Shown here in pieces: positions 41,147 to 62,113 of a stretch of DNA of 64,000 nucleotides. Origin of the DNA: Humisphaera borealis (lineage in GTDB: Bacteria > Planctomycetota > Phycisphaerae > Tepidisphaerales > Tepidisphaeraceae). The stretch is from positions 2,790,001 to 2,854,000 of the forward strand of contig NZ_CP063458.1 of assembly GCF_015169395.1 (NCBI RefSeq), given 5' to 3'. The notes beneath the pieces were generated by a model. It had not been told where the DNA came from. It made no database searches and was given only the letters and a program-made list of their open reading frames with translations. The position numbers and the translations under genes were made by a program. Position 1 is the stretch's first letter. Every line of letters starts with the position of its first letter.

Positions 41147-41223
41147 GGGCAGCACGCAGTAAGCAATACGCAGTGAAAAGGCGGCTTGCGCACCCTCTTC
41201 ACTGCGTACTGCTGACTGTCTGC
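41147..41223. repeat. Solo CAGTACG-type heptamer element
   Basis: The left arm (41147-41177) and right arm (41198-41223) are inverted, with GCAATACGCAGTGAA against GCAGTACGCAGTGAA matching 14 of 15. They use the same 7-mers as the 45373-45831 element but have only about 20 bases between the arms. Confidence 0.7.
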
Positions 41224-41237
41224 TTTTCAAAAGATTC

Positions 41238-42736: not shown

Positions 42737-45370
42737 TTACATCTGCGGCGTTCGTTCCTGCCCGGCCGGCAGGGGTTGTCTTTTCTGGTCATCGGACGGC
42801 GATTCGACCGGCGTTTGTCCTACCCGCCTGCCGGAAGCGTCCGATTCACTTGCGAGGGCACCGGCGGGGGAACCGGCAACGCTTATGACGGCGGATCCGC
42901 CACTTGAGCCGTTCTGCCGTTCCGACGGGGACTTTGCGCCCGTGCCACGCCCGGGATTGCCCGCTGCCGCCGGATCGCCCGGCAGAACGACCAGGACGCG
43001 CGTGCCTTCACCGGCCCGGCTTTCCAGCCGGATTGATCCGCCACTGGCCTCGACCCACCGCAACGCCTTGGCCAGCCCCAGGCCGCGGCGACGGCCGGCC
43101 GGCTTGCTGCTGAAGAACGGATCGAACGCCCGCTTGAGCGTCGCTTCGTCCATGCCGCAGCCGTTGTCCTTGATGTTGATCACCACGCGTCCGGACCAGG
43201 GGTCATGACCCGCCTGCACCGCGATCCGCCCGGTCTTGGGGTCGGTCGCGTGAATAGCGTTGATCAGCACTTCCGAGAGTGCCGCCGTCACCTGCTCGGC
43301 GTCTACAGCAACTTTCGGAACCGCTCCAATTTTGACTTCAACACCCCTATCGGCGGGATCGGCCTGGGCCTTGGCGCGAGTAAGTCCGCCGGTAATGAGG
43401 CTCCCCACTTCGCAAGGTAAGGCCTTCGGCGGGTTCGGCTTCGCGAACGCCATCATCTCCGTAATGATGTCGCTCAGCCGGTCGGCCTGCTCGTGGATGA
43501 GCCGGGCCATCGCCTTCTGCTTGTCGTCGGTGATCGTGCGGGCGAGCAACTGGCTGCGTCCGGAAATGACCGCGAGCGGGTTGTTCATTTCGTGCGCCGC
43601 ACCGGCGGCCATTTCGCCGACGGTCGTCAACGCGCGCGTCCGCAGCAGCACGTCCTGGGTCGTATGCAGCTGGCGGTTGGCCTCGGCGAGTTCTTCTGAC
43701 AACGTGCGGGCCTCGTCACGGACCTGCGCCATGCGCAGCGCCAGCGACCACCCGTGCGACAACGCCGCCAGTTCCTGCGCCTGGGGCAACAATCGCTCCG
43801 CCTCCCCCGCCGGCGCACCCCACACGAGCCCACCAATGCACGCCCCCTCGGCCTGCAGGCAGATCCAGAATCGGCGTTCATTCGGCAGCTTCGGCGACAG
43901 CGCACCGGTGAGCCATTCGATGGAATCGCCGGCGGGAAGCACCGGGCCGTCGCCGGGGAGTAGACTTGCGGGCACGCGCTTGGAAGACGCTGCCGGGAGT
44001 GCATTTGCACCCATTGCCGGAGAACCCGCGGCCGAGCCGTTGTGCTCACCAGGCTCTCGTTGTGTTTCACCGCTTAACGCCCGGATCGCCGACAGCTCTT
44101 CCTCTGTCAGCGGGCTGCTTTCGGTGACATCCGACATCCCCGGCAGCTCGACCAGTTGCGATTCGATCACCCCGCCGTCGGCGTCGCACAGCGCGGCCTC
44201 GGCGTAGTCCTGGGCGGGCGTCAGGCTGAAGGCGGCGGTGCGGTCCAGGCCGATCACCCCCGCCGCGGTGCGGGCAATCGCCGACATCACCAGCAAGGGC
44301 GTGGCGTCGCCGCGCAGGCCGGATTGAAACTGCTGAAGTGCGTCGAAGAAGTGAGTTCGCTGCGACAGGCGTTTGCTCTTGGCGGCCAATTGCCCGCTGA
44401 CTTTGCCCAGCTCGCGATTGGCCTGGTCCAGCGCCCGTCGATAGAGCTCGTCGCCGGTGGATTGGTCCAGGCCCAGCGCCGAGAGGCGCGGCTCCATCCG
44501 CGGGATGATCGCCGCGACGACCGCTTCAACCTTTGCCGCAGTCAGGCCCGTCGCCGACAGCAGCGAGTCGCGGGCGACCGAGAACGCGTAGTTGCCGCTG
44601 TAGCCCAGGTGCTGCTGGCGGACGAGCTGATCGGCGAGGGTAACGAGGTTGATGAGCTGCGATTTGACCGCCTGCGGCAACGCCTCCGGCGGCTGTCCGT
44701 GCAGCCAGCAGACGTCCCGTACCGCCGCCGGCAACTGCCACCGCTCGGCGAGCCGTTTACCCGCCACCTGGTGATCCACGCCGATGACGGTGCGCTCCAG
44801 GTCGGCGATGTCGCCCCGCAGCAGCTCGGCGGCCTCCACCACCCGCGCGTAGCTCTTGGGGATGGCCACATCGAGCGCGATCTTGCCCAGATCGTGCAGA
44901 AGTCCACAGACGAACGCGTCCGACGTGTGCACGCCCCCGGCCTCTTCGGCCAGCAGTTCCGCGCAGCACGCGACGGCCAGGCAGTGTTTCCAGAACTCTT
45001 CCCTGCTGAACTTTTTCGCTTCCGAGCCGCCCGCGCCGGCCGGCGACTTTGCGGTGGACGGACTGGTGGTCCCCAACGCCTGAAACACGGATACCGCCAG
45101 CACGGCGTTCCGGACGGCATCAAACCCCAGCATGACGACGGCACGGTCAACGGACTGAATCTCGTCCCGAACGCCACGATCGGCCCGGCGAGTCAGTTGC
45201 AGGATACGAGCGGTCAGTGAAGGGTCGGCGGAAATGGTCTGAACAACATCGCTTGCCGACGAAGCATCGTCCGAAGTCACCTGCAACACGCGCACCGCCA
45301 CCGCCGGCAGCGTGGGGAGCTCCTCAAGCTGCTGAAGGATCAGATCGAGGCGCTTGTCGCGTAAGTCCAT
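42737..45370 (-). CDS. HDOD-GAF-histidine kinase fusion
   Basis: 877 residues. The N-terminal HDOD domain (about 5-260) has LEELPTLPAVAVRVLQVT, SADPSLTARILQLT, AVVMLGFDAVRNAVLAV and GLLHDLGKIAL. A coiled linker and divergent GAF-like middle (about 300-560) follow, then HisKA with His in GAAHEMNNPLAVISGRS and HATPase with EVLINAIHAT, DNGCGMDE and PFFSSKPAGRRRGLGLA. The last 70 residues are low-complexity. The ATG at 45370 is immediately preceded by the arm of a heptamer element, and no ribosome binding site is visible. Confidence 0.9.
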   Translation of the reverse strand: MDLRDKRLDLILQQLEELPTLPAVAVRVLQVTSDDASSASDVVQTISADPSLTARILQLTRRADRGVRDEIQSVDRAVVMLGFDAVRNAVLAVSVFQALGTTSPSTAKSPAGAGGSEAKKFSREEFWKHCLAVACCAELLAEEAGGVHTSDAFVCGLLHDLGKIALDVAIPKSYARVVEAAELLRGDIADLERTVIGVDHQVAGKRLAERWQLPAAVRDVCWLHGQPPEALPQAVKSQLINLVTLADQLVRQQHLGYSGNYAFSVARDSLLSATGLTAAKVEAVVAAIIPRMEPRLSALGLDQSTGDELYRRALDQANRELGKVSGQLAAKSKRLSQRTHFFDALQQFQSGLRGDATPLLVMSAIARTAAGVIGLDRTAAFSLTPAQDYAEAALCDADGGVIESQLVELPGMSDVTESSPLTEEELSAIRALSGETQREPGEHNGSAAGSPAMGANALPAASSKRVPASLLPGDGPVLPAGDSIEWLTGALSPKLPNERRFWICLQAEGACIGGLVWGAPAGEAERLLPQAQELAALSHGWSLALRMAQVRDEARTLSEELAEANRQLHTTQDVLLRTRALTTVGEMAAGAAHEMNNPLAVISGRSQLLARTITDDKQKAMARLIHEQADRLSDIITEMMAFAKPNPPKALPCEVGSLITGGLTRAKAQADPADRGVEVKIGAVPKVAVDAEQVTAALSEVLINAIHATDPKTGRIAVQAGHDPWSGRVVINIKDNGCGMDEATLKRAFDPFFSSKPAGRRRGLGLAKALRWVEASGGSIRLESRAGEGTRVLVVLPGDPAAAGNPGRGTGAKSPSERQNGSSGGSAVISVAGSPAGALASESDASGRRVGQTPVESPSDDQKRQPLPAGQERTPQM

Positions 45371-45372
45371 GG

Positions 45373-45831
45373 GAAGTAGGCAGTACGCAGTAAGCAGTAC
45401 GCAGTAAAGACGGCATCCCAATACCTACCGCTTTTCATCGTTCGCCTTGATAAGGCCGTTGATCACCCTGCCGAGTTCGGCGGCAATATCCAGTTGAGCA
45501 TCGACCCACGCAGCGTCTGCGTACTCCAATCGCTTGGCGATCATGGTAAGCGTCTCAACTTCACGCAGCGATCCATAGGCAATGCGCAGGAACCTCACGA
45601 AGTCGCCCGGGCTGCCTCGCCCCTGACCTTCGGCGATGTTGGCGGGAATCGACACCGCCGCCCGCCTGAGTTGGCTCGTCAGCCCGTAGATTTCATCCTT
45701 GGGAAAGGTCTTCGTCTGGCGGTATATCGCCTCGACGAGGTCCATTCCAATCCGCCAGGCAATGAGATCCCGGTAGTTCCGCATTGGGCATTCTCTTCAC
45801 TGCGTACTGCTTACTGCGTACTGCCTACTTC
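45373..45831. mobile_element. 459-bp unit: four-helix-bundle gene between 38-bp inverted heptamer arms
   Basis: The left arm 45373-45410 and right arm 45794-45831 are inverted copies matching at 37 of 38 positions, each built of 7-mers (CAGTACG, CAGTAAG, CAGTACG, CAGTAAA). The space between holds one gene (45425-45784) and almost nothing else. No transposase is encoded. Confidence 0.65.
45425..45784 (-). CDS. Four-helix-bundle protein (S23 / 23S rRNA intervening-sequence family)
   Basis: 119 residues: NYRDLIAWRIGMDLVEAIY, TKTFPKDEIYGLTSQLRRAAVSIPANIAEGQGR, then two more helices. This is the hallmark pattern of the TIGR02436 family, which includes proteins encoded in 23S rRNA intervening sequences and the Avd accessory proteins of diversity-generating retroelements. 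There is no rRNA or reverse transcriptase nearby. It sits inside inverted heptamer arms, the start only 10 bases from one arm. The molecular function is unknown; a nucleic-acid-binding role is plausible. Confidence 0.9.
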   Translation of the reverse strand: MRNYRDLIAWRIGMDLVEAIYRQTKTFPKDEIYGLTSQLRRAAVSIPANIAEGQGRGSPGDFVRFLRIAYGSLREVETLTMIAKRLEYADAAWVDAQLDIAAELGRVINGLIKANDEKR

Positions 45832-45840
45832 CTACCTCTC

Positions 45841-46404
45841 TCACACCACCAGCAACTCCCCAATCCGTCCCACGAGCTTTTCGATATTGAACGGCTTCTT
45901 CACGAAGTCGTCCGCGCCGGCCTTGAGCAGGTCGTTGATCTCGTCCTGATTGACCACGCCGGAGACGATGATGATCTTGGTGTGTTCGAAGTTCGGGTTC
46001 TTGCGGATCGTCTGGCAGACGACGTTGCCGTTGATGTCCGGGAGCATGTAGTCCAGGATGATCAGGTCGGGCATGAACTCCTGCGTGATCATCCCCGCGT
46101 CGTAACCCGTGCTGGCGGTGCGGATTTCGAACCGGCCGTCGCGCTCCAGCACGTCGACGAACAATTCCACAATTTCCGGGTCGTCGTCGACGACCAGGAC
46201 CTTGCTCTTGCCCGAATCGAGCCCCTCGATCGGGATCTGGTTGTCCTTCATGAACGCGACCAGCGCGTCGCGCGGAATCCGGCGGAACCGGCTGCCGGGA
46301 ACGCGGAACCCTTTGAGCCGGCCGCTGTCGAAGCAACGAATAATCGTCTGCTGCGAGACCTTGCAGATGTCGGCGGCTTCGCCGGTCGTGAATACGGTCT
46401 TCAT
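45841..46404 (-). CDS. Response regulator with N-terminal MerR/excisionase-type DNA-binding domain
   Basis: 187 residues from ATG 46404 (GGAG 8 bases upstream). The N-terminal helix-turn-helix (MKTVFTTGEAADICKVSQQTII, then RLKGFRVPGSRFRRIP) is of the excisionase/BldC type. The receiver domain (about 68-185) has VLVVDDDPE, Asp in LIILDYMLPD and Lys in FVKKPFN. The order DNA-binding then receiver is reversed from most regulators. It lies upstream of the four-helix-bundle unit and HDOD-kinase on the same strand. Confidence 0.9.
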   Translation of the reverse strand: MKTVFTTGEAADICKVSQQTIIRCFDSGRLKGFRVPGSRFRRIPRDALVAFMKDNQIPIEGLDSGKSKVLVVDDDPEIVELFVDVLERDGRFEIRTASTGYDAGMITQEFMPDLIILDYMLPDINGNVVCQTIRKNPNFEHTKIIIVSGVVNQDEINDLLKAGADDFVKKPFNIEKLVGRIGELLVV

Positions 46405-46771
46405 GTCGCTGCTCCGAGTGCAGGGCGGGGAACGGTCCGTCATCCAGTGTGCTGGCTCACCATGGCCGCAACATCGACCATGCCCGCACACAGGTTATCG
46501 GTTCTCCCGATTCCCCATCTTTCCTATTTCACCATCGTCGTCCAGTTTACGCAACTTAACTTTGGAGCGTGTCAGGGGAAAGCCGCTGGCGGGGTGGGGT
46601 GCCGGGCGGTGGGGTAGGCCGATGATGTCGGCACCAACGACGCCCCGTTCGATCCGGCCATCAAAACACGAAAGGCGGGCCGCACGGCGATCGATGGCTC
46701 GATCGCGGACGACCCGCCTTTCGGCGGTGGGGCCTCACCCTCCAGGGGAGCCCCGAAACTATCAGACCCGA
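46405..46771. other. Spacer with terminator between pilin genes and the regulator
   Basis: No gene is supported. It contains the terminator hairpin at 46671-46721. Confidence 0.5.
46671..46721 (-). terminator. Terminator of the pseudopilin cluster
   Basis: AAAGGCGGG (46671-46679) pairs with CCCGCCTTT (46713-46721), with an inner GATCGATGG/TCGATCGC-type palindrome. On the minus strand it is followed by CGTGTTTTG. Confidence 0.55.
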
Positions 46772-52695: not shown

Positions 52696-53565
52696 TCACT
52701 GCCGCAGCGGGATGTAGGTCACGTACGTGCCGATCGCGATCGACTGGCCGGTGAACGTACCGCCGATCTTGCGTCGGCCGACGATGTAGGCGTCCACCGC
52801 GCCGGCGGTGTTCTCGGCGGAGGTTGGCAGGTCGTTTCCGGGCAGCAACTGGTACACGCTCGTGCTCCCGTCCTTGAGATCGCCGAGCCGGTAAATCTTG
52901 CCCGTGCGCAGCACGATTACCGCGCCCGGAGCGGCCGCGTCGGCGAACGTGCCGCTCACAACGCACTCGTCGGCGTCGTTGCCTTTGTCCGTCAGCGTCA
53001 CCTGCACGGGGTACGGCAGCAGACCGGCTTCGGCGTTGTTGCCGGTGCCGCTTTGGGTCAGGTCGGCCGTGCTGAAGTTCGATTCACCGCGGATCTGAAC
53101 GGGAATCACGATCAACTGTGCGTTGTTGGGGGGCTGGCCGCGGTAGTCGGTCGTGTCGCGCTTCACCAGCGCGACCCAGCCGAACCGGGGCTCGTCGGCG
53201 AGGATCTGGTTGCCCTTGATCAGCGACCAGGGCTTGAGCGTCAGCGAGCCGGCGCTGGGGGTGAGCACGCTCACGTCGTCGTCCGTCAGCCGGGTGACCA
53301 CGCCGCTGTTGGGAATCAGTTGCGACAGGTAAGGCATCGAGCCGTAAGCGGCGACGGCGGACCGGGCCATGCTGGCACCGATCGTTTCTTCCTGGCTGGC
53401 AGCGGTCTGGCTGATCGCGACGGGGAACACCCCGGCGATCATGATGAACCCGATCCCCAGGATCATCACCGCGAACAGCACCTCCGTGAACGAAAAACCA
53501 CGGCGCGGGCGGTGCCCGCGAAGGATGACGGATGAGGGATGAAGGATGAAACGGGATGGTGCCAT
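52696..53565 (-). CDS. PilV/GspI-like pseudopilin
   Basis: 289 residues from ATG 53565. The leader is unusually long (about 22 residues) and includes FILHPSSVIL encoded by GGATGAA-type heptamers. The processing site is RRG-FSFTEVLFAVMILGIGF with Glu5. The globular part is beta-rich with three YxxG-like turns. A shorter leader from a lost start may have been replaced when the heptamer element arrived. Confidence 0.8.
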   Translation of the reverse strand: MAPSRFILHPSSVILRGHRPRRGFSFTEVLFAVMILGIGFIMIAGVFPVAISQTAASQEETIGASMARSAVAAYGSMPYLSQLIPNSGVVTRLTDDDVSVLTPSAGSLTLKPWSLIKGNQILADEPRFGWVALVKRDTTDYRGQPPNNAQLIVIPVQIRGESNFSTADLTQSGTGNNAEAGLLPYPVQVTLTDKGNDADECVVSGTFADAAAPGAVIVLRTGKIYRLGDLKDGSTSVYQLLPGNDLPTSAENTAGAVDAYIVGRRKIGGTFTGQSIAIGTYVTYIPLRQ

Positions 53566-53629
53566 GGAACCGCTCGCTCTTGAACTTGTTTGTATGTCCG
53601 CCTTCATCCTTCAGCCTTCATCCTTTGAT
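53521..53629. repeat. Inverted GGATGAA heptamer element (copy 1)
   Basis: The left arm 53521-53552 is four GGATGAA-type 7-mers. The right arm 53599-53629 is the inverted form (TTCATCC, TTCAGCC, TTCATCC). The middle (about 46 bases) is similar to that of the copy at 54293-54381. It overlaps the 5' end of the PilV-like gene. Confidence 0.7.
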
Positions 53630-53637
53630 TCGAGCGC

Positions 53638-54333
53638 TTACTCGCCACGCAGCAGCGTTCCGTTGTAGCGGTTGACGAGGAACGGGATGGCGTTTTCGTC
53701 CATCCACTTTTTCTGAGCAGCCGCGCCGACCTGACTGTCATAGGCAGGCTTGTCATAGAGGACGAAACCGATGTTCGTGAGTGTCGTCGGGAAATTGGCG
53801 GTCGCCCGGAGGCGCTTACCGAGGTTCGAAGTCGACGTGTACGAGACATTGTCGAGCAGCAGTTTGCCGTCGCCGTCGAACATGACGATCGCGGTCGCCG
53901 GCCACGGGTAGGCCGGCGGGCTTCCGCTTGCGCCGGTACCGTTGGGGACGGCCTGCAGCCCCACACCCACCGGCAATGCCATGTCATCAGCAACACCCAG
54001 CAGATCGATCTGCGGGCGGGTGACGCCCGGCGGATACTGCACCTGCACGAGGGTGACCCGGCCGGTGCCGGCATCGGTGAAAAGAACAACCCCGCGCGGC
54101 TCCTGAAGGCCGATCGCCTGGGCACGCGTGGACGCGAGGTACGACGAGATCTGGTTCTCGGCCGATTCGAGCGTTCGGCTTCCGGTGATCGCGTTGAACG
54201 CCGGCAGCGCCAGCGCCAGGATCAGCACGGCCAGCGCGATCACGACGAGCAGTTCGTTCAGCGTAAAGCCGAAAGATCGCCGCCTCCGGGCTGGAAGGAT
54301 GAAAGACGAAGGATGAAGGATGAATCGTGCCAT
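53638..54333 (-). CDS. GspH-like pseudopilin
   Basis: 231 residues from ATG 54333. The leader again contains FILHPSSFIL from heptamer repeats. The processing site SFG-FTLNELLVVIALAVLILALALPAF has Glu5. The globular domain has GspH-like features (SYLASTRAQAIGLQEPRGVVLF; a typical RA(Q/E)AI stretch after the helix). Confidence 0.82.
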   Translation of the reverse strand: MARFILHPSSFILPARRRRSFGFTLNELLVVIALAVLILALALPAFNAITGSRTLESAENQISSYLASTRAQAIGLQEPRGVVLFTDAGTGRVTLVQVQYPPGVTRPQIDLLGVADDMALPVGVGLQAVPNGTGASGSPPAYPWPATAIVMFDGDGKLLLDNVSYTSTSNLGKRLRATANFPTTLTNIGFVLYDKPAYDSQVGAAAQKKWMDENAIPFLVNRYNGTLLRGE

Positions 54334-54381
54334 TGAATCGCTCGTTCTCGGTCGTGTTTTCAGTTCCGCCTTCATCCTTCG
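54293..54381. repeat. Inverted GGATGAA heptamer element (copy 2)
   Basis: The left arm 54293-54324 and right arm 54367-54381 are inverted TTCATCC/GGATGAA 7-mers. The middle sequence CGTGCCATTGAATCGCTCG parallels the copy at 53521-53629. It overlaps the start of the GspH-like gene. Confidence 0.7.
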
Positions 54382-62032: not shown

Positions 62033-62113
62033 AGTAGTCAGTAGTCAGTAGTCAGTAGTCGGTGGCCAGGGCATTTTCCTCTCTGACCACTGACTACTGA
62101 CTACTGATTACTC
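62033..62113. repeat. Inverted AGTAGTC heptamer element (DUF1800 3' side)
   Basis: The left arm 62033-62070 and right arm 62081-62113 are inverted AGTCAGT-type 7-mers with an about 10-base spacer, 9 bases after the DUF1800 stop codon and between two genes that normally form an operon. Confidence 0.8.

Follow-up and report, generated by a model that had tools for sequence, protein, structure and literature searches.

The element and its surroundings

An element of about 0.46 kb, consisting of a single small protein gene bracketed by mirror-image 7-mer repeats, was found in a 64,000-nucleotide stretch of the Humisphaera borealis genome (the window). The gene (45425–45784, minus strand, 119 codons) is the only one between the arms, and its product matched PF05635 (E = 1.9e-35) and TIGR02436 (E = 1.2e-34), passing the curated cut-off. 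The arms lie at 45372–45410 (left arm; 3' in the sense of the gene) and 45794–45832 (right arm; 5'). Each is 39 nt long, and 38 of the 39 positions are complementary, which is far above chance. The repeat units are GCAGTAC, GCAGTAA and GCAGTAG, with AGTACGC and AGTAAGC units in the right arm, which continues with one extra, degenerate unit past the 39-nt repeat and so reaches about 45838. A search with a three-unit pattern gave 16 matches in the window, against 0.01 in shuffled sequences. No transposase, nuclease or reverse transcriptase was found between the arms, where the PF05635 gene stands alone. The initial annotation had described 38-bp arms of 37/38 identity, made of CAGTA-type 7-mers, around an S23/IVP-family gene and nothing else. 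The inverted heptamer arms and the lone gene are as described, but the arms measure 39 nt, of which 38 are complementary.

The gene product was modelled with AlphaFold (pLDDT 97.3). A fold search returned the solved family members 2gsc and 2rld first, followed by Avd and the ribonucleoproteins of diversity-generating retroelements (DGRs) at Z ∼16; unrelated entries scored at most 13. The solved family structure XCC0516 (2gsc) shares 48% identity with the window protein (Z 21.5), and Avd aligned with it at Z 15.9 over 108 residues with 12% identity.

The element separates two genes of a signalling run, as had been proposed for this DNA: an HTH-response regulator gene (45841–46491, minus strand), which ends just beyond the right arm at 45841, and an HDOD-histidine kinase gene (42737–45370, minus strand), which directly follows the response-regulator gene in relatives. 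The proposal that one arm sits directly before the kinase start is also borne out, the ATG (45368–45370) lying one base outside the arm. The locus is thus not within a 23S rRNA gene. The two signalling genes are neighbours in about 14 relatives, with a gap of 30–190 nt and no four-helix gene. The site is thus not fixed; fixation in all relatives would have spoken against a mobile element. The same gap holds short non-coding arms in one genome (G002) and a single array in another (G011), so that the gene may have been lost from an older insertion. Compared site by site, the element is present in the window genome and the gene is absent from the same place in relatives.

Arms-only copies

Inverted arms without the gene occur elsewhere in the window. 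One copy (41149–41225) is built of GCAGTAC units like the element itself and lies directly after the stop codon of a second response-regulator gene, a position where G011 carries a full element. Pairs made of AGTAGTC units are found at 15616–15725, 17074–17146 and 62033–62112, and pairs made of GAAGGAT units at 53520–53625 and 54294–54380 (right end approximate), the latter two having similar loops. The pair at 53520–53625 overlaps the predicted N-terminus of a prepilin-like open reading frame (52696–53607), which reads through its arms. The short relatives that the initial annotation saw elsewhere in the window thus exist as arms-only pairs, but only 41149–41225 has the same unit as the element at 45372–45838.

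A census of repeats over 864 kb of the 7.19-Mb genome gave about 20 arms-only pairs, compared with 4 full elements in the whole genome. Within these 864 kb the family gene was the only gene seen between paired arms. The comparison indicates that the arms-only copies are reduced forms or relatives of the full element. Together with the inverted flanks of other family genes (see below), their existence agrees with the view that the window holds a full-length member of a class.

Paired arms at family genes across genomes

The window genome contains four family genes, every one of which lies between inverted 7- or 8-mer arrays. The array units differ from gene to gene: GCAGTAC, GGCACGAA (period 8), GTCGGAA and TCAGATC. 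When upstream arms were scored against downstream arms for the four elements, the scores on the diagonal were 36, 25, 11 and 13 and all others were 5–7; each arm thus matches the partner at its own gene.

Flanking inverted 7-mers at other members of the family had been suggested as a check, their absence counting against the proposal, and they were found. Among 41 related genomes, an inverted flank score of at least 14 was obtained for 79 of 112 family genes (all that were measurable) and for 1 of 752 control open reading frames from the same loci. A period of 7 common to both flanks was seen in 56 of the 112 genes versus 10 of the 752 controls, and a period of 8 in 8 genes versus 0 controls; other periods were near zero. 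About a quarter of the family genes in these genomes have no arms. A first sample had given flank scores of at least 16 in 66/118 versus 0/469 places. In a second sample, of named genomes from many phyla, strong inverted flanks were present at 48 of 84 genes; resemblance to the window gene had guided the choice of these genomes, and the related-genome set is therefore the fairer one. A score of at least 14 was reached with the own partner arm in 55% of cases and with arms of other elements in the same genome in 1.2%. On the strand of the gene, upstream arms are G-rich and downstream arms C-rich, and the orientation of the units relative to the gene is constant. The units, aligned in register, have a consensus of approximately AGTGGTC, yet 93 different units were counted among 117 arrays. 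Overall, the comparison supports well, at the level of a class, that 5' arm, four-helix gene and 3' arm form one unit.

Some members have unusual surroundings. On plasmids of Anabaena and Pseudanabaena, a four-helix gene with 7-mer arrays lies between cas6 and cas4 in CRISPR operons (L319:1495–1863 and L322:1501–1860; the arrays of L322 are direct, not inverted). On a Nostoc plasmid, a four-helix gene with TAGGGAG arms is placed between two ribonucleotide reductase genes (L320:1498–1866). At L033:700–1845, one full and three partial copies of a four-helix gene follow each other in tandem every 254 bp.

Elements inside host protein genes

The initial annotation had not anticipated that elements would also be located within host protein genes (for Type III methyltransferase, DnaE2 and others). 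This is so for 31 of the 193, with the host frame free of stops throughout the element. All 31 of these through-reading elements are in the sense orientation and in one relative frame. Of the 82 family genes outside host reading frames, just 7 are stop-free in the host-readthrough frame, and the remaining sense frame always contains stops; the constancy of the relative frame is thus partly due to the protein sequence. As recognition of in-gene elements by the open frame itself is circular, homology of both host halves was used instead. The most common host in the named set was the Type III methyltransferase (PADLOC PDLC03632), whose halves flank an element in 25 cases, 24 of them in frame without a stop and 1 frameshifted; several of these are more than 90% alike, which lowers the effective number of cases. 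In a sample of Planctomycetota, the site was empty in 27 and filled in 3 of the 30 best-matching methyltransferase genes. Other hosts were DrmMI/IIG methylases, a hybrid histidine kinase, a GNAT protein and a prepilin-like gene. The methyltransferase reading frames of L095 and L100 contain, elsewhere along their length, additional short inverted 7-mer elements in frame (peptides such as SGQWLVDS...SPLTTNHS).

The two frames are not under equal constraint. In the methyltransferase copies, amino-acid identity is 72% for the four-helix frame versus 51% for that of the host, and the third codon position of the four-helix frame accounts for 54% of the changes. Host-frame peptides from four unrelated hosts matched the PADLOC PglX model PDLC02522 at positions 288–396; the insert therefore seems to be present, and read in the same frame, in some curated PglX proteins. 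It appears that the PDLC02522 profile holds a translated insert, by which domain annotation may be misled. A search for host-frame insert peptides in plasmids found nothing.

The dnaE2 gene of the window genome (L144:3509–7558, minus strand) is an open frame of 1349 codons through three in-frame insertions of the GGCACGAA type, two of which consist of arms only while the third includes the four-helix gene. Among 19 relatives that have dnaE2, four carry an element at the site of the full insertion, and most others are empty there, with short linkers; G012 has arms without a gene, and G004 and G014 have longer, remnant-like linkers. The tree unites the four copies from dnaE2 in a single clade (support 0.98), which is consistent with an old insertion followed by losses or with repeated return to one site. 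In a Caldilineaceae genome (L067:3206–7215), copies flank a gene whose translated start resembles dnaE2, recalling the insertions of the window genome.

Evidence on movement

Several observations bear on mobility. Two copies in G034 are 87% identical over 507 nt, the match stopping at the arms with unrelated flanks, and two copies in Caldilineaceae (L067) have 89% identity across 492 nt. Caldilineaceae copies located at other sites group in one clade with the methyltransferase copies (support 0.74). Arms at one orthologous site differ in type between genomes: at dnaE2, arms scored 25–40 with their own partner versus 9–13 across types, and at the methyltransferase site 17 and 12 versus 6–7. That both arms change together suggests that they pair, or that one arm converts the other.

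From these comparisons the element is apparently mobile. The single dnaE2 clade also fits vertical descent with losses. Active transposons usually show near-identical multicopy families, and no such family was seen. No clear target duplication was seen at the two G034 copies. A pair of Calothrix NIES-22 plasmids was considered as a recent jump and rejected, because a phage integrase is part of the block that they have in common, and a search for carriage by phages gave no match in the phage collection.

Discussion

We regard the window element as probably a small selfish insertion element, similar to an intervening sequence and tolerated in frame. For this to work, the two arms would have to pair with each other into a hairpin of DNA or RNA, and the four-helix protein would recognise the paired arms, its fold being known from the nucleic-acid-binding Avd. 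Since the element contains no enzyme, replication or repair enzymes of the host would cut and copy it. Such an element would survive where the host is hardly harmed: in intergenic space, behind stop codons or within genes, in the last case in the one frame in which its coding strand can stay free of stops. The host frame is then probably translated through the in-gene element, which would give the host protein a loop of about 140 residues. Such translation, like the part of the four-helix protein in movement, is something we infer.

The closest known system is the 23S rRNA intervening sequence (S23/IVP) of Leptospira and Coxiella, in which one small gene of the same protein family lies between terminal inverted repeats. 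That of Coxiella has an S23 gene, a 28-bp terminal inverted repeat and tandem GACAGAT heptamers before the start codon, and RNase III cuts at the first repeat (PMC4990558). In contrast to these sequences, the present class is located outside rRNA, between and inside protein genes, with heptamer arrays as both arms, and has four elements per genome with differing arms; no 23S motif was found in the loci scanned.

An element acting at the RNA level is the best of the alternatives, though an unlikely one. Its arms would pair in the transcript, RNase III would trim the hairpin and the protein would be an RNA chaperone for protection or processing, spread being rare and incidental. Besides the parts shared with Coxiella and the cut there, this is favoured by arm pairing that is kept while arm sequence changes, and by the match of the fold to Avd within DGR ribonucleoproteins. 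However, most elements lie between genes, and excision from mRNA without ligation would lose host genes such as dnaE2, whereas the host frames stay open.

Cyanobacterial STRR heptamers and the inverted GGGAATC pairs of Xanthomonas (PMC4692102) likewise consist of 7-nt tandem units, and several family genes on cyanobacterial plasmids sit between STRR-type arrays. The difference is that gene and arms form one unit in the present class. The accessible part of the Xanthomonas/Nostoc paper does not mention a four-helix gene (PMC4692102). Nor does that of a Beggiatoa heptamer paper, which suggests that the mobile part might be a repeat-binding protein itself (PMC4679880). In the papers searched, a set to which subscription papers and preprints do not belong, no link of the family to heptamer arms in general was found; priority for this link is uncertain.

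In another, rather improbable reading, the arms would be dispersed repeats of an ordinary kind that some other factor moves, such as a Y1 REP transposase, with the four-helix gene as a passenger or a hitchhiker captured once. The excess of arms-only pairs over full elements fits this, as does the presence of Y1 transposases in 37 of the 41 genomes. Three genomes with family genes (G036, G029 and G030) have no Y1 match, however, the assembly of G036 comprising two contigs at 100% completeness, and a Y1 REP transposase was rejected as the sole mobiliser. Moreover, the surveyed 864 kb showed no other gene between paired arms, and the orientation of the units relative to the gene does not vary.

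Retro-movement, in which the protein would act like Avd and direct copying of the element RNA by a resident reverse transcriptase, is very improbable despite the related fold (see also PMC10053308), because G009, G015, G036 and G039 (some assemblies incomplete) have no reverse transcriptase match and G011 only a sub-threshold one, with 1 to 8 family genes each; on present evidence the enzyme is not needed, and dependence on it was rejected as unsupported. The window element shares the four-helix fold with DGRs but is itself without a reverse transcriptase, and the two RVT_1 matches of the genome are at 3.49 and 6.72 Mb, the window being at 2.79–2.85 Mb. With DNA transposons and MITEs it shares terminal inverted repeats, but a transposase gene is absent between its arms.

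Rickettsia palindromic elements insert in frame inside protein genes, as do members of the present class, although not the window copy. They are not known to carry a gene of their own, in contrast to the present class with its conserved gene in a second frame.

A wider extension of the selfish-element reading is more tentative, and we place it somewhat short of an even chance. The class may be a separate kind of mobile element, distributed over many phyla, whose sole gene encodes a four-helix protein that is not an enzyme and in which the paired heptamer arms serve for both recognition and copying; the second-frame gene would allow it to settle in protein genes without breaking them, and rRNA intervening sequences would be the branch that dwells in rRNA.

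The in-frame cases are natural examples of DNA read in two frames, one under selection at the protein level and the other maintained mainly without stops. The annotation of methyltransferases, BREX PglX and DnaE2 is affected by them. If true, the proposal would tie together three puzzles, namely the origin of the 23S intervening sequences, the unexplained heptamers seen in cyanobacteria, in Xanthomonas and elsewhere, and the large number of orphan four-helix-bundle genes, and would make all three testable with one assay.
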